Positions 5,645-13,537 of a DNA stretch of 64,000 nucleotides are shown one piece after another. Under the pieces are notes generated by a model. It was not told the origin of the DNA. It saw only the letters and a list, made by a program, of their open reading frames with translations, and did not search any database. The number at the start of each line of letters is the position of its first letter. The stretch's first letter is position 1. Source of the stretch: Halopiger xanaduensis SH-6. GTDB lineage: Archaea > Halobacteriota > Halobacteria > Halobacteriales > Natrialbaceae. The translations under genes were made by a program, and so were the position numbers. Location of the stretch: positions 3,360,270-3,424,269 of the forward strand of contig NC_015666.1 of assembly GCF_000217715.1 (NCBI RefSeq), read 5' to 3'.

Positions 5645-6445
5645 TCAGGCCTCGAGCGCGAGGCCGGCTCGGCGCAGCGCCTCGTCGGTCGAGAGATCGT
5701 CGTGGACGACGCCCGAAACGGCCGTCGCGATGGCTTCGGGGTCCTCGTGCTGGAAGATCGAGCGGCCCATCGAGATGCCGGCGCCGCCGGCGTCCATCGT
5801 GCCGCGGACCATTTCGATCGTCTCGCGGTCGCTTCCCTTCGAGCCGCCGGCGATGATGACCGGCAGTCGGGTCGACTCGACGACGTGCTGGAAGCTCTCG
5901 GCGTCGCCGCTGTAGCCCGTCTTGACGACGTCGGCGCCGAGTTCCTCGGCGAGGCGGACGGCGTGACCCAACGCCTCGGGGTCCTCCGGATCGACGCCGG
6001 GACCGCGCGCGTAGGCCATCGCGAGGACCGGCATGCCGAGTCGCTCGGCCTCCGCGGTGACCTCCGACAGCTGCGTGATCTGGTCCGGTTCGTGGTCGGA
6101 GCCGACGTTGATATGGAAGGAGACGGCGTCGGCGCCGGCGCGAACCGCTTCCTCGACGGTGCCGGTCATCCGTTTATCGTTCTCGTCGGGGCCGATCGTC
6201 GTCGACCCGTTGAGGTGGACGATGTAGCCCTTGCCGTTCTTGTTCTCGTGGACGCGCGGGGCGATCCCCTTCTGCGTGAGGACGGCGTCCGCGCCGCCGC
6301 TGGTCACGCCGTCGATCGTCGATTCGATGTCCTTCAGCCCCTGGACGGCCCCCATCGTGATGCCGTGGTCCATCGGGACGATGACGTAGTTCCCGTCTGT
6401 ACCGATTCGCTCGAGTCGTGCGTCGATTCCGGTGGCGGTGGTCAT
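5645..6445 (-). CDS. 2-amino-3,7-dideoxy-D-threo-hept-6-ulosonate (ADTH) synthase
   Basis: 266-residue class I aldolase of the DhnA/ADTH-synthase type, the first enzyme of the archaeal route to 3-dehydroquinate that replaces DAHP synthase. Seen: PMDHG with Asp26, Tyr145 in LAMAYARGPG, Schiff-base Lys175 in DVVKTGYSG, and phosphate-binding AGGSKGS and GISMGRSIF near the C-terminus. The start at 6445 is chosen: it lies 25 bp after the trpA stop, and further upstream in frame the sequence is not acidic and overlaps trpA. It is the last gene of a trpC-trpB-trpA-aldolase run, linking aromatic precursor supply with tryptophan synthesis. The paralogous fructose-bisphosphate aldolase function is the alternative. 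Confidence 0.88.
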   Translation of the reverse strand: MTTATGIDARLERIGTDGNYVIVPMDHGITMGAVQGLKDIESTIDGVTSGGADAVLTQKGIAPRVHENKNGKGYIVHLNGSTTIGPDENDKRMTGTVEEAVRAGADAVSFHINVGSDHEPDQITQLSEVTAEAERLGMPVLAMAYARGPGVDPEDPEALGHAVRLAEELGADVVKTGYSGDAESFQHVVESTRLPVIIAGGSKGSDRETIEMVRGTMDAGGAGISMGRSIFQHEDPEAIATAVSGVVHDDLSTDEALRRAGLALEA

Positions 6446-6470
6446 TTGCGAGTGTGTAGCAAGCTTGCAG

Positions 6471-7348
6471 TTATTGCTGTTCCGGTTCCGGTGCATCTTC
6501 CGCATCGACCGTGATAGAGTCGGCGCCGCGGCGCGCGCCCCGCTTGAGTTCGGCTGCCTTGGCCTCGAGGCGCTCGACGGCCTCGGCGGTGTCGTCGCTG
6601 CTTGCGATGATATCGACTAGGGTGCTGCCGACGATAACGCCGTCGGCGCCGGCCTCGACGATCTCCGCGGCGTGGTCGCCCTCGCTGACGCCGAAGCCGA
6701 CGGCCTTGGGAACGTCGTACTCGGAGAGGCGCGCGAGGCTGTCGTGAGTCGCCGTCGAGACGTTTGCGCGCGCCCCGGTCGTGCCGAGGCGGGCCTGCAC
6801 GTAGGCGAAGCCCGAGACCTGCGACATGATGTCGTCGAGGCGCTGGCCCTCGGTGGTCGGCGCGATGATGAAGACCAGATCGAGCCCGTGGTCGTCGCAG
6901 GCCTCCCGCAGCGGGTCGGCCTCCTCGGCGGGGAGGTCGGGAACGATGATTCCCGAGAGCCCCGCATCGGCCGCGCGCTCGACGAACGGCCGGACATCAG
7001 GCTCGTCGCCATACTGGAGGATCATGTTGTAGTACGTCATCACCAGCAGCGGCGCCTCCGTCTCGAGATCGTCCACGAGTTCGAAGAAGCCCTCCGGCGT
7101 GGTGCCGGCCTCGAGCGCGCGGTTGATCGCGGCCTGGATCGTCTGACCCTCCGCGATCGGCTCCGAGAACGGGAGGCCAAGTTCGATCAGGTCGGAGCCG
7201 CCCCGATCGAGGGCCTCGACGTACTCCTTGGTGTCCTCGAGGGACGGGTCGCCCGCGGTGATGTAGGTGATCAGCGCGGGGTGGTTCTCGCGGATGGCGG
7301 CCTCGACGTCGCTGTCGTACTCGGTCTCGCTCTCGGTTGCTGCGTCAC

Positions 7349-7352
<4 letters not shown>
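6471..7352 (-). CDS. trpA: Tryptophan synthase alpha subunit
   Basis: 293 residues, a complete TIM barrel that cleaves indole-3-glycerol phosphate and channels indole to TrpB. Catalytic Glu57 is in [11 protein letters not shown] (equivalent to E. coli Glu49). The second catalytic acid, Asp60 in E. coli (LADGPT), is Glu68 here (IAEGQT), a conservative but notable change. The phosphate-binding GFGVSEG and [12 protein letters not shown] blocks are present. ATG at 7352 overlaps the trpB stop by 4 bp (ATGA), typical of translational coupling. The N-terminal 20 residues are acidic and poorly conserved. Regulation probably comes from the trpC promoter. Confidence 0.95.
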
Positions 7353-8617
<1,265 letters not shown>

Positions 8618-8623
8618 GTCGTA

Positions 8624-9427
8624 TCAGTCTCCGTTGTCGTCGCTCGTCTCCGCTGTCGCTTCCGCCTCCGTCAGCCGCCGCGTGTTCGCGGCGACGTCGC
8701 TGTCGCCCGCGCCGTGGTCCATGATGGCGCTGCCGACCAGGAGGGCGTCCGCGCCCGTCTCGCGCATCCGGCGCACGTCCGCCGGACTCGAGACGCCGCT
8801 TTCCGCAATGAGAGTCACGTCGTCCGGAGCGTGGGGACTCACGGACTCGAAGGTTTCGAGGTCGACTTCGAGTTGCGCCAGATCCCGGTTGTTGACCCCG
8901 ATGATCTCCGCGCCCGCCTCGAGCGCGGCCTCGAGTTCTTCGCGGTCGTGGACCTCCACGAGTGGCTGGAACCCCCGCTCGCGAGCGGCCGCGACGAGCC
9001 CCTCGAGGTCGTCCACGAAGCGGGCGATCAGCAGCAGGAGGTCTGCTTCGACGACGTCCAGCTGGGCCTCCTCGAGGACGAAGTCCTTCCGGAGGACGGG
9101 GACGTCGACGGCCTCGCGGACGCGGGTCAGCGCCTCGGGCGAGCCGCCGAAGTGGGAGGGTTCGGTCAGCACGGAGATCGCCGACGCGCCACCCTCGACC
9201 ATCGCTTCAGCCAGTTCTACGGGATCGTCGTCGCGCGTCCCGTCGGCCGTCGGACTCGTCGGTTTGACCTCCGCGATCACCGGCACGCGGCCGTCCGCCT
9301 CCGCGCTCGCGATCGCGTCGGGCAGCGACCGCGCGTCCACGTCGACGGCGCTCTCGCCGCCGGGGCGCTCCCGGGCGGCCTCGAGGATCGACGCTACCGC
9401 GGGCGCGAGCTCCGTTTCAGAGTTCAT
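8624..9427 (-). CDS. trpC: Indole-3-glycerol phosphate synthase
   Basis: 267-residue TIM barrel closing the indole ring from CdRP. Catalytic residues can be placed: Glu53 and Lys55 in [10 protein letters not shown], Lys114 in VLRKDFV, Asn in IGVNNRDL, and Ser in IAESGVSS. It is first in the trpC-trpB-trpA-ADTH synthase run; no trpE, trpG, trpD or trpF is in the window. The start codon is the first ATG after a promoter-like element with two TGTACA hexamers (see 9430-9457), so the transcript would be leaderless or have a very short leader. Confidence 0.95.
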
Positions 9428-9429
9428 TG

Positions 9430-9457
9430 TTGTACATCGACGTACTCATATGTACAA
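9430..9457 (-). promoter_or_regulatory. TRP-box-like operator overlapping the trpC promoter
   Basis: Two perfect TGTACA palindromes lie at 9431-9436 and 9451-9456, inside an inverted repeat TTGTACAT/ATGTACAA (9430-9437, 9450-9457). A third, weaker copy CGTACT (9441-9446) lies midway, so GTAC recurs every 10 bp (9432, 9442, 9452), once per helical turn. On the trpC strand the distal copy is embedded in TTTTGTACATAT, which sits where the TATA box should be (about -25 to -30 from the ATG at 9427). TGTACA is the known TRP-box consensus of TrpY in Methanothermobacter. Use of the same site in a haloarchaeon is inference. Confidence 0.65.
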
Positions 9458-9553
9458 AAGGCTTGCGCCATCATCCCGGCGCGGTGCGGTCCGCCGGGGC
9501 CGGAACCGGGCGCGACCGGCGCTTATTCAAGCCGGTAGATCCTACGTCCGCGT

Positions 9554-10024
9554 ATGGAGGACGTCACGGAGGCCGGAATCTACGCGCGGGAATCGTCGTA
9601 TCTCGACCGGTACGTGCAACTCGGCGCCGCCAGCGGACGCGTCCTGAGCGTCGACTTCCCCGGCACGCCCGAGGCCGACGCCGAGGACGAGCACCCCGTC
9701 CTCGACCGCATCTTCGAGTACCTCGAGGGCCTCGAGGAGGTCGACTTCGACGACGTGCAGGTCGCGCTGACGGTGCCGACGGACCAGCGGGCCGTCCTCG
9801 AGCAGGTCCGGGAGATTCCCTACGGCGAGCAGGTCGACGTGAAGGCGCTCGCGCGGATGACGCCGGAACTCGACCCGGACGACGAGGACGATCTGACGCT
9901 CGTCCGGACGGCGCTGGACGCCAACCCGGCGCCGCTTTTGATTCCGGACCACCGCGTCCGCGACGGCCCCAGCGCCGCGCCGCCGGCGGTCGAGCAAAAG
10001 CTCCGGTCGCTCGAGGGCCTGTAA
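9554..10024 (+). CDS. MGMT-domain (alkyltransferase-like) protein lacking the acceptor cysteine
   Basis: 156 residues. Residues 76-156 align with the DNA-binding/catalytic domain of O6-methylguanine-DNA methyltransferase: QVREIPYGEQVDVKALARM matches the helix-turn-helix region, and LDANPAPLLIPDHRV matches the active-site block NPxPxxIPCHRV. The acceptor Cys is Asp132 here (PDHRV), so methyl transfer by the classic mechanism is not possible. In alkyltransferase-like (Atl) proteins the Cys is also replaced and the protein flags lesions for excision repair; Asp is not the usual replacement. The N-terminal 70 residues are acidic and haloarchaeal. TTATTC at about 9522-9531 sits 27 nt before the ATG. 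It is divergent from trpC. Confidence 0.75.
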   Translation: MEDVTEAGIYARESSYLDRYVQLGAASGRVLSVDFPGTPEADAEDEHPVLDRIFEYLEGLEEVDFDDVQVALTVPTDQRAVLEQVREIPYGEQVDVKALARMTPELDPDDEDDLTLVRTALDANPAPLLIPDHRVRDGPSAAPPAVEQKLRSLEGL

Positions 10025-10192: not shown

Positions 10193-13100
10193 ATGCGCAT
10201 CAGGGACCGACTGTCTATACGGGACGATACCGGTGAGACGCGGCGCCGGCGAACCGACTTCGTAACCGACCGCCTCGAGGCCGGGGCGGAAACCGTCGGC
10301 GATCTCTCGAGGCGCGCTCGAACCGTTGCGAACGAGGGACCAGCGGAGGCGCTCGAGCGCGGCGTGGACGACCTCCGCGATCGCTCTCGCAAGCGACTCG
10401 AGAGCGCGCGCGACAGACTCGTCGACCGCGCCGTGACCGAACTCTGCGAGCGAGCGGTCGGCCGAACGCCCGACGAACTCCGCGAGGAGGCGGCCCGCGG
10501 CCCCGACGGGACCGATCCGTTGGATCGCGCCCTCGAGCGGTTCGTCCGCCGCTACGATCTCGACGAGGCCCGGTTGGACGAGCGGACGCTGGCGGTGATC
10601 CGCGAGCGGCTGGCGGCGGACGTCGGACCGGACGGCGAGATGGACGTAGACGAGTTGCTCGAGCGCCTCGCCGACGTGGACGCCGCGGACGCGGCGACGG
10701 CCGACGACGGCACGGCCGCGGACCCGCTCGAGATCGAGGACGCTCTTGCGGATCTGCGCGAAACGGTCCGGACAGAACTCGACCTCGAGCCGAACCAGTC
10801 GCCCTCGGAGGCCCTTTCGGAGATCGGACAGCGCGACGCCGTGGTCGTCGGCCACGCTCTCGAGCGCCTGCTCACCGAGGAGATTCCGCGACTCGTCGAC
10901 GAGCGGACGCCTGACGATTCGAAGCGCGAGAGCGACGGAAGCGTCCCCTCCGCTGCTGCACCGATGGAGACTGAGCCCGCCGTGCTCGAGGGGGAGAGGA
11001 CCGATCCCACCGCTCGAGCTGGTGCTGGATCCGGACCCCCCGTACGGTCCGTTGCGACCGCGGCGGCCACGATGCTCGCGCTGCTCGCGGACGACGGCGG
11101 GGGCGGTCCGTCCGCCGGTCAATTGCTCTCCCTGTTGGGGCCGATGGCCGCGGGTTCGGGTACCGGTGCTGGTGACGGTGCGGACGCCCCACTCGAGCGC
11201 GTTCTCATCGAACTGGTCTCGAGCCTCCTGCTCGAGGACGGCGGCCTCGATCTCACGGAGGTCCCCGGCCTGCGCTCGCGCTCGAAGGGATCGCTGGCGC
11301 TCGTCGCACTGTTCGTCGCCAACCTCGTCGCGATGTCGATCGGCGCGTGGGTCTCGCGCGAGCGGGCGCCGCCGATCCCCGACGAGATCCGCGGCCCGGA
11401 CGGCGAACCCGTCGTAACCGCCGAGCAGGTCAAGCAGGGCAAGAAGGTGTTTCAGGCGAACGGGCTCATGAACCACGGTTCGATCCTCGGCAACGGCTCG
11501 TACTTCGGAGTCGATCTGACCGCCGACGCGCTCGAGTTGAAGACCGAGTTCATGCGCGAGTACTACGCGCGCCAGCGCGGGGCCGACGCCTTCGACGAGC
11601 TGTCGGCCGACGATCGGGCCGCCGTCGCGGATCGGGTCGAACGCGAACTCGACAACGACGCGCCGGAGGGATCGATCGCGCGGTACTCGGCCGCCGAAGC
11701 GTACGCGCACCGGCGGATTCGAAACGAGTACGTCGACCGCTATCACGCCGGGTCGCCCGAGCGCGGCGTGCCGGCGGGGTTCGTCGAATCGGCCTCGCAG
11801 GCCGCGCGGATCACCGACTTCGCCTGCTGGACTGCGTGGATGGCCCACACCGATCGGCCCGGCTCGGACCACTCCTACACGAACGACTGGCCGCCCGTCC
11901 CGGGCAGCGGCAACCGGCCGACCGGGCAGGTGCTGGTCTGGAGCACGATCAGCGTCGTCCTGCTCGTCGCCGGCGGCGGTGCTGGCGTCTGGGCCTACCA
12001 TAGCTTCGACTTCGCCGAGCCGACGACCGAACTCGTCGACGTGCCCTCGCCCGACGCGGTGTCGGTCACGCCCGCCCAGTACGCCGCGGCGCGGTACGTC
12101 CCCGTCGCCGGCGCGCTGTTTCTCGCGCAGGTGCTCGTCGGGGCCTACCTCGCGCACTACTACGTCGAGCGGACCGGCTTCTACGGCATCGGCGAGGCGC
12201 TCGGGATCGACCTCGTCTCCCTGCTGCCGTTCTCCGTGGGTCGAACCTGGCACATCAACCTCGGCATCCTCTGGATCACGACGCTGTGGCTCGCCGGCGG
12301 TCTCTTCCTGCCGGGGCTGTTCGCCGACGAGGATCCGCCCCGGCAGGCCGAAGGCGCGACCGTCCTGCTGGGCGCGCTCGTCGCCGTCACGGTCGGCGCC
12401 TTCGCGTGCGTCTGGCTCGGCATGCAGGGGAAGTTCGGAACCCCCGAAGACGGTCACCTGTGGTGGCTGCTCGGCTCCGAAGGCCTCGAGTACCTCGAAA
12501 CTGGCCGCATCTGGAAGGTTTCCCTGCTCGCCGCGCTCGGCGGCTGGACCGGCCTCGTCCTTCGGAGCGTCCGCCGACTCGACGAACCGCCGACAGGACT
12601 GGGCCACTTCATGACCTACGCGGGCGGCTCGATCGCCCTGCTGTTCGGCGCGAGCATGCTCTACACGCCCGAGACGAACATCGCCGTGACGGAATTCTGG
12701 CGCTGGTGGGTCGTCCACATGTGGGTCGAGGGCGTCTTCGAGTTCTTCGTCACCGCGATCGTCGCCGTCGCCTTGGTCTCGATGGACCTCCTGGAGCAGG
12801 CCGACGCCGAGCGGGCGATCCTCTTCGAGGTGTTCGCGATCATGGCCGCCGGCATCGTCGGCGTCTCCCACCACTACTGGTGGGTCGGGCTCCCCGACGT
12901 CTGGGTGCCGATCGGGACGACGTTCTCGACGCTCGAGTTCGTCCCCCTAGTCTTCGTCCTCTACCGCAGTTTCGGCGAGTACCGGACGCTGAAGGCGCAG
13001 GGCGAGGCGTTTCCCTACACGCTGCCGCTGCTGTTCATCGTCGGCTCGAGCGTCTGGAACTTCGTCGGCGGCGGGGTGCTCGGCTTCTTCATTAACCTGC

Positions 13101-13537
13101 CGGTGATCAACTACTACGAGCACGGCACCTACCTGACGGTCGCGCACGGCCACACGGCGACGTTCGGCGCGTTCGGCCTGCTGGCGCTCGGCCTCGGCAC
13201 GTACATCCTGCGGGTGGTCACGCCCGAGGCCGCGTGGCAACCGACGTGGTTCCGCGCCGCGTTCTGGCTGACCAATATCGGCCTCGCCGTCATGTCGATC
13301 GCCTCCCTGCTGCCGATCGGCTTCCTCCAACTACAGACGGCCTTCCAGGACGGGTACGCCGCCGCGCGGAGCCTCGAGTTCTACGAGGACGACCGCGTCC
13401 AGACGCTGCTGTGGGCCCGAACGCTGGGCGATACGCCGATGATCCTGGGTGCGTTGGCGTTCACCGCTGGGGCGGTTCGGCACCTCCTGGCCGCGCGTCG
13501 AGAGGTCGACTCGAGTGCGGCCGGGGCGACCGCGTGA
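10193..13537 (+). CDS. Quinol-dependent nitric oxide reductase with ~360-residue N-terminal extension
   Basis: 1114 residues. Residues about 364-1114 form a normal-length qNOR: first membrane helix at 367-387, periplasmic domain with GPDGEPVVT and LMNHGSILGNGSYFG, then some 13 further helices. Heme/FeB ligands are in place: His687 (WHINLG), His842 and Glu846 (HMWVEG), His893-His894 (SHHYWW), His985 and His987 (AHGHTAT). It reduces NO to N2O with quinol electrons in the membrane. Residues 1-363 are an added hydrophilic, Asp/Glu/Arg-rich, mostly helical region of no recognised family, with a Gly/Ala-rich stretch at about 280-330. No stop or frame change separates the two parts, and composition is typical halophilic protein throughout. 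An internal start cannot be excluded. Confidence 0.9.
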   Translation: MRIRDRLSIRDDTGETRRRRTDFVTDRLEAGAETVGDLSRRARTVANEGPAEALERGVDDLRDRSRKRLESARDRLVDRAVTELCERAVGRTPDELREEAARGPDGTDPLDRALERFVRRYDLDEARLDERTLAVIRERLAADVGPDGEMDVDELLERLADVDAADAATADDGTAADPLEIEDALADLRETVRTELDLEPNQSPSEALSEIGQRDAVVVGHALERLLTEEIPRLVDERTPDDSKRESDGSVPSAAAPMETEPAVLEGERTDPTARAGAGSGPPVRSVATAAATMLALLADDGGGGPSAGQLLSLLGPMAAGSGTGAGDGADAPLERVLIELVSSLLLEDGGLDLTEVPGLRSRSKGSLALVALFVANLVAMSIGAWVSRERAPPIPDEIRGPDGEPVVTAEQVKQGKKVFQANGLMNHGSILGNGSYFGVDLTADALELKTEFMREYYARQRGADAFDELSADDRAAVADRVERELDNDAPEGSIARYSAAEAYAHRRIRNEYVDRYHAGSPERGVPAGFVESASQAARITDFACWTAWMAHTDRPGSDHSYTNDWPPVPGSGNRPTGQVLVWSTISVVLLVAGGGAGVWAYHSFDFAEPTTELVDVPSPDAVSVTPAQYAAARYVPVAGALFLAQVLVGAYLAHYYVERTGFYGIGEALGIDLVSLLPFSVGRTWHINLGILWITTLWLAGGLFLPGLFADEDPPRQAEGATVLLGALVAVTVGAFACVWLGMQGKFGTPEDGHLWWLLGSEGLEYLETGRIWKVSLLAALGGWTGLVLRSVRRLDEPPTGLGHFMTYAGGSIALLFGASMLYTPETNIAVTEFWRWWVVHMWVEGVFEFFVTAIVAVALVSMDLLEQADAERAILFEVFAIMAAGIVGVSHHYWWVGLPDVWVPIGTTFSTLEFVPLVFVLYRSFGEYRTLKAQGEAFPYTLPLLFIVGSSVWNFVGGGVLGFFINLPVINYYEHGTYLTVAHGHTATFGAFGLLALGLGTYILRVVTPEAAWQPTWFRAAFWLTNIGLAVMSIASLLPIGFLQLQTAFQDGYAAARSLEFYEDDRVQTLLWARTLGDTPMILGALAFTAGAVRHLLAARREVDSSAAGATA

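Follow-up and report, generated by a model that had tools for sequence, protein, structure and literature searches.

The analysed locus of H. xanaduensis SH-6 lies in a 64,000-nt stretch of DNA (the window) and carries trpC, trpB, trpA and a class I aldolase-type gene on the reverse strand, the last of which is probably the final gene of the trpCBA operon (Table 1). The same gene order, trpCBA-OE1472F, forms an operon in H. salinarum (PMC4162585). Divergent to trpC, a small protein that contains the DNA-binding domain of methylguanine-DNA methyltransferases (PF01035) is encoded at 9554-10024 (+), and a nitric oxide reductase-type protein follows at 10193-13537 (+). The latter has a 1114-aa frame matching PF22085 at residues 396-568 and PF00115 at residues 632-1080, and its first ~390 residues form a charged extension without any Pfam match.

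Table 1. Genes and promoter elements of the trpCBA locus (window coordinates; distances relate to the trpC ATG)
Feature	Position	Strand	Remarks
Class I aldolase-type gene (2-amino-3,7-dideoxy-D-threo-hept-6-ulosonate synthase)	5645..6505	-	PF01791, 178.9 bits
trpA	6471..7352	-	ORF; assigned from sequence and the H. salinarum trpCBA order (PMC4162585)
trpB	7349..8617	-	ORF; assigned from sequence and the H. salinarum trpCBA order (PMC4162585)
trpC (indole-3-glycerol phosphate synthase)	8624..9427	-	ORF; first gene under the array
Possible fourth box, TGAACT	9421..9426	-	+2..+7, in trpC codons 1-3; weak; in the 10-bp register
Proximal TRP box, TGTACA	9431..9436	-	-9..-4
Middle degenerate box, AGTACG (consensus AGTNCR)	9441..9446	-	-19..-14; forward strand CGTACT
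Distal TRP box, TGTACA	9451..9456	-	-29..-24; overlaps the TATA position
Conserved core-promoter stretch CGCAAGCCTTTTGTAC (BRE/TATA-like CTTWTGTA)	9454..9469	-	Upstream of and overlapping the distal box

The array upstream of trpC

Between the trpC ATG (9427) and the divergent gene at 9554, the trpC strand reads GGCGCAAGCCTTTTGTACATATGAGTACGTCGATGTACAACAATG. A scan of the whole window found TGTACA at exactly 9431-9436 and 9451-9456 and nowhere else, which bears out an earlier note on this DNA that had described two perfect hexamers 20 bp apart. About 1.5 copies are expected by chance in 64 kb, so the number of copies is at chance level, but that both fall here at a distance of 20 bp is not chance. 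The mismatch-free pattern TGTACA-N14-TGTACA occurs a single time in the 4.36-Mb genome; with up to 2 mismatches allowed, 23 occurrences were counted, hardly above the 18 of the reversed control. The degenerate third copy proposed in the same note, with GTAC recurring every 10 bp, fits the AGTACG between the two hexamers on the trpC strand, so that boxes start at -29, -19 and -9 relative to the ATG. A possible fourth box lies within the first codons, and its GNAC core is retained in 53/65 trpC genes, a conservation that may partly reflect codon choice.

The trpC transcript appears to be leaderless, and for a transcript starting at the ATG the distal hexamer does overlap the TATA position, as had been suggested. 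The stretch CGCAAGCCTTTTGTAC would act as the core promoter; within it, CGCAAGNCTTATG was conserved across all families sampled in the trpC promoter alignment, with an information content of up to 2.3 bits per position.

Conservation of phased boxes before trpC and trpD

We found a trpC homologue in 288/293 genomes of the order, and a perfect TGTACA-N14-TGTACA in 110/293, compared with 2/293 for the reversed pattern; most of the listed perfect pairs lie directly before trpC and some before trpD. An alignment of 65 trpC promoters, drawn from eight haloarchaeal families, gave the consensus CGCAAGCCTTATGTACANATNAGTNCGTTANTGTACANTAATG. A match of at least 4/6 to TGTACA at the fixed position was present in 88% of these promoters for the distal box, 89% for the proximal box and 71% for the middle box. 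The spacings between boxes peaked at 20 bp, with 63 cases compared with 0.07 in shuffled sequences. The earlier note had made its reading depend on the pair recurring before trpC in relatives; allowing for a small common shift, both outer boxes were present in 64/65 promoters, and in 0/65 when the spacing was altered.

The remaining trp genes of H. xanaduensis lie elsewhere in the genome in the order trpD-trpF-trpE-trpG, unlinked to trpCBA. The trpD promoter of this genome, CTTAAGTTGATGTACTTATTTGGGCATTGTAAGACAACTACGTACATTGGTGTCCACT-ATG, carries boxes at -48, -38, -28 (weak), -18 and -8 with 5, 4, 3, 5 and 5 of 6 matches to TGTACA. Thus, the trpC pair is not the whole operator, as the earlier note had treated it, and a longer array in the same genome had been overlooked. 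In the 68 trpD promoters sampled across seven families, boxes were spaced by 10, 30 and 40 bp in 73, 66 and 33 cases, compared with 0.06-0.1 in shuffles. Of the four main boxes (-48, -38, -18 and -8), three or more were found in 67/68 of them and in 0/68 of the altered-spacing controls. Boxes at 10n spacing upstream of haloarchaeal trp genes, which the note had proposed to look for, are therefore found at both trpC and trpD. In small-genome haloarchaea, a perfect TGTACA-N14-TGTACA was also observed before an apparent trpD (L082, L083, L084 and L041, of families f9 and f11).

We considered whether the block before trpC might be an unusually conserved core promoter, comprising BRE, TATA and start region, with no dedicated repressor. 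A conserved CGCAAG-CTTATG stretch does lie at the BRE/TATA position, where the distal box overlaps it. However, the same hexamer recurs every 10 bp exactly in two promoters that differ in its distance from the ATG (-29/-19/-9 compared with -48/-38/-18/-8), the altered-spacing controls are zero, and core promoters do not repeat TGTACA, which makes this explanation quite improbable. Alternatively, control could be by attenuation, with the block serving as an RNA leader or encoding a short leader peptide (reading frame ATG-RCG-CAA-...-stop, which overlaps the ATG of trpC), and the frame is indeed open in many members of the source genome's own family. Yet within that family a single-base deletion (L031) and a TAG (L037) interrupt the frame, in other families its ATG is absent, it contains no Trp codons, and trpD carries the boxes without any such frame. 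Being broken inside the family and not kept outside it, the leader peptide was rejected, and attenuation of this kind is next to inconceivable.

A scan for phased arrays over the window and about 20 further loci of the same genome returned trpC, trpD and the GC-rich locus L008 and nothing else. L008 was rejected as a further target since its score looks like GC-rich chance, and we claim no target beyond trpC and trpD. Taken together, these results firmly support that the phased boxes are a real and deeply conserved operator of trpCBA(-aldolase) and trpDFEG.

A TrpY-family protein in haloarchaea and its probable link to the box

The earlier note had seen no TrpY gene in the window, which holds; the homologue it suggested looking for is encoded elsewhere in the genome. 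This protein (P0001, G000:C3:496956 on) is a single-copy HTH protein of 167 aa with a putative ACT domain that matches the NCBIfam model TrpY_fam (NF053754) with 241.6 bits over model positions 1-163 of 163, where the cut-off is 180. It was first found with a query modelled on the haloarchaeal HTH-ACT family, and its identity rests on the NF053754 match. In its C-terminal half, PF13840 and PF01842 matched at E values of 2e-4 to 9e-4, which are weak and below the curated cut-offs. Other ACT proteins of the genome, found by a Pfam ACT search, were rejected as the regulator as they had no visible DNA-binding domain; these ORFs resemble threonine dehydratase, SerA, PheA, the acetolactate synthase small subunit and a stand-alone ACT protein. 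A sequence search for a solved TrpY structure found none.

The TrpY family was present in 255/255 near-complete haloarchaeal genomes, in one copy with few exceptions, and in 123/124 near-complete haloarchaeal genomes of a phylum-wide sample. Given that TrpY is universal in haloarchaea, its presence or absence cannot by itself tie it to the boxes. Two f9 genomes among the small-genome haloarchaea had two TrpY-family matches each. In H. xanaduensis, trpY sits downstream of hisB and a divergent gene and not beside trp genes, and haloarchaeal trpY was unlinked to trp genes in all loci examined. No TGTACA boxes were found directly upstream of trpY in these loci, hence no autoregulation was visible.

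In Methanothermobacter, the binding of TrpY to TRP boxes between trpY and trpE has been shown experimentally, as cited in PMC6737238. Where trpY is divergent to trpE in Methanobacteriales, we observed repeated TGTACA, TATACA, AGTACT/AGTACC and TGTATA at 0, 10, 30 and 40, and the commonest pair spacings were 10, 30 and 40 bp. This 0/10/30/40 phasing is the spacing of the haloarchaeal trpD array, of which the trpC array is a 0/10/20 variant. The original work on Methanothermobacter TrpY reportedly gave TGTACA as the TRP-box consensus. One genome with this layout (G436, locus L263) encodes an OMP decarboxylase that shares 99% identity with the M. thermautotrophicus protein in PDB; the layout is thus found in the species used for the experiments or in a very close relative of it. 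The TrpY proteins of H. xanaduensis and L263 share 36% identity over 166 aligned residues, and VDRR in the DNA-binding region is common to both. In a tree of 28 TrpY rows, haloarchaea formed one group and Methanobacteriales another.

We further searched upstream of trpY in other methanogens. In those belonging to the phylum of the source genome, TGTACA lay within ~100 bp upstream of trpY in 5/20 loci, compared with 2.3% expected per locus (P ~7e-5). In one genome of family f24 (G299, locus L167), trpY is divergent from a trpC-D-F-E operon with no TGTACA between them, which counts against the proposed circuit; the operator may have changed there. In Methanobacteriales loci where trpE is not beside trpY (L190, L267-L278), a single TGTACA (TGTCCA in L268) was found ~22 bases upstream of trpY, adjoining a tRNA-like sequence, which suggests that trpY autoregulation may persist without an adjacent trp operon.

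Given the boxes and phasing shared with the Methanobacteriales trpY-trpE region, the TrpY alignment and the TGTACA upstream of methanogen trpY, TrpY is the most likely binder, and the haloarchaeal TrpY is strongly predicted to recognise the boxes. The interpretation first offered for the trpC hexamers, that they are TrpY-type TRP boxes reflecting conserved tryptophan control, thereby gains support from the 64/65 conservation, the TrpY gene and the Methanobacteriales phasing, as far as sequences can tell. In all families sampled, TGTACA-type boxes were found at trpC/trpD promoters, lying over the TATA position or the start site.

Predicted control of the two trp operons

In H. salinarum, the seven trp genes are arranged in precisely these two operons, and all of them are induced when aromatic amino acids are lacking (PMC4162585). 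Both trp operons of Har. hispanica shift in concert, no TrmB site lies near them, and 'additional factors' were invoked (PMC10817205). A TrmB-type site at the trp operons was discarded as a candidate, as that Haloarcula study (PMC10817205) found no TrmB motif or binding there. Evidence to the contrary comes from H. volcanii, whose trpCBA promoter PMC13147458, citing Large 2007, calls 'not tightly regulated'. The published AroAA repression of both operons in Halobacterium lends indirect support to a tryptophan response of both.

We propose that TrpY very likely binds the boxes phased at 10 bp and, when tryptophan is abundant, keeps both trp operons repressed. The trpC operator consists of TGTACA-like half-sites 10 bp apart that begin over the TATA position and reach the start codon. 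With steps of 10 bp, all boxes would face the same side of the helix, an arrangement suited to dimers that bind cooperatively. TrpY with tryptophan in its putative ACT domain would bind both rows cooperatively and block TBP/TFB or RNA polymerase, so that both operons are repressed, and at low tryptophan it would be released from the arrays. Since the trpC array spans the TATA position to the start codon, binding there should exclude TBP or polymerase; at trpD, a TATA-like CTTAAG precedes the array, and bound TrpY would prevent the entry of polymerase. The role of tryptophan as co-repressor is suggested by the ACT-like domain, for which the Pfam matches are weak, and by Methanothermobacter.

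The boxes might instead be the operator of another amino-acid regulator, either the Lrp-type LrpA2/Trh1 or the TrmB paralogue HAH_0923, their likeness to TGTACA being convergent. LrpA2 mRNA rises 14.9-fold without aromatic amino acids, and the protein has been suggested as the regulator in Halobacterium (PMC4162585); expression of HAH_0923 tracks the trp operons in Haloarcula (PMC10817205). Both proposals concern the same target operons, rest on expression and come without a binding site, and the haloarchaeal boxes match neither. Lrp proteins often bind phased arrays. However, the box sequence and the 0/10/30/40 spacing fit the Methanobacteriales trpY-trpE region with trpY adjacent, and a TrpY homologue is always present, which makes LrpA2 or the TrmB paralogue an unlikely alternative to TrpY.

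The nearest known counterpart is the repression of trpEGCFBAD by TrpY through TRP boxes in M. thermautotrophicus (described in PMC6737238). It has in common with haloarchaea the TGTACA-type boxes, the 0/10/30/40 phasing seen at haloarchaeal trpD, the trp target and the position of the boxes over the promoter. Its TrpY is an HTH-ACT protein of the same NCBIfam family as the haloarchaeal protein, with ~36% identity over the full length. In contrast to Methanothermobacter, haloarchaeal trpY is unlinked and its own promoter lacks boxes, the trp genes form two separate operons that each have an array, and the trpC array has 3-4 boxes at strict 10-bp steps. A trpY gene beside and co-regulated with the trp genes is the Methanothermobacter arrangement and does not define the binding site. 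T. kodakarensis (TkTrpY/Tar, TK0271) likewise combines a TrpY homologue with trp genes regulated by aromatic amino acids, but in this species the trp promoter is not bound by TrpY and is instead activated by Tar (PMC6737238), indicating that TrpY homologues can change function. The haloarchaeal homologues form a separate and unexamined branch in that study (PMC6737238). Among bacteria, a functional analogue exists in the TrpR operator, which is tryptophan-responsive and lies over a trp promoter; the protein is unrelated and the operator sequence different.

On a broader view, a TrpY-TRP box circuit common to Methanobacteriales and haloarchaea is probably ancient. In haloarchaea it would have been reshaped so that the repressor acts in trans on two unlinked operons through helically phased oligomer arrays, autoregulation having been lost, and it would then be the missing 'additional factor' in trp co-regulation. 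We found no prior description of haloarchaeal TrpY control, its two-operon scope or the array in the literature searched, which mostly lay outside subscription journals. The type of regulator is known; what appears to be new, judging from the genomes, is the lineage, the unlinked trpY, the split regulon, the architecture of the array and the absence of visible autoregulation. Two transcriptome studies had left haloarchaeal trp control open, with a guess at LrpA2 (PMC4162585) and with 'additional factors' or a TrmB paralogue (PMC10817205). The finding points to one particular gene, to defined sites at the two operons and to a rule for their spacing, all of which can be tested in genetically tractable haloarchaea. 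Few amino-acid repressor circuits have been followed between distant archaeal phyla through their DNA operator, and this would be one of them; the promoter with the trp array is a candidate tryptophan-repressible promoter for haloarchaeal genetics.

A cluster of overlapping TGTACA palindromes (TGTACAAATGTACATTCGGATGTACA...) occurs in a low-complexity stretch of a short contig (L049, G040:C55:10322-10473) and seems to have no relation to trp genes. A near-perfect inverted repeat, TGGACAATG-TTTATAAT-CATTGTTCA, located in an AT-rich intergenic region of H. xanaduensis (L009, G000:C3:837479-837504), looks like the operator of another regulator.
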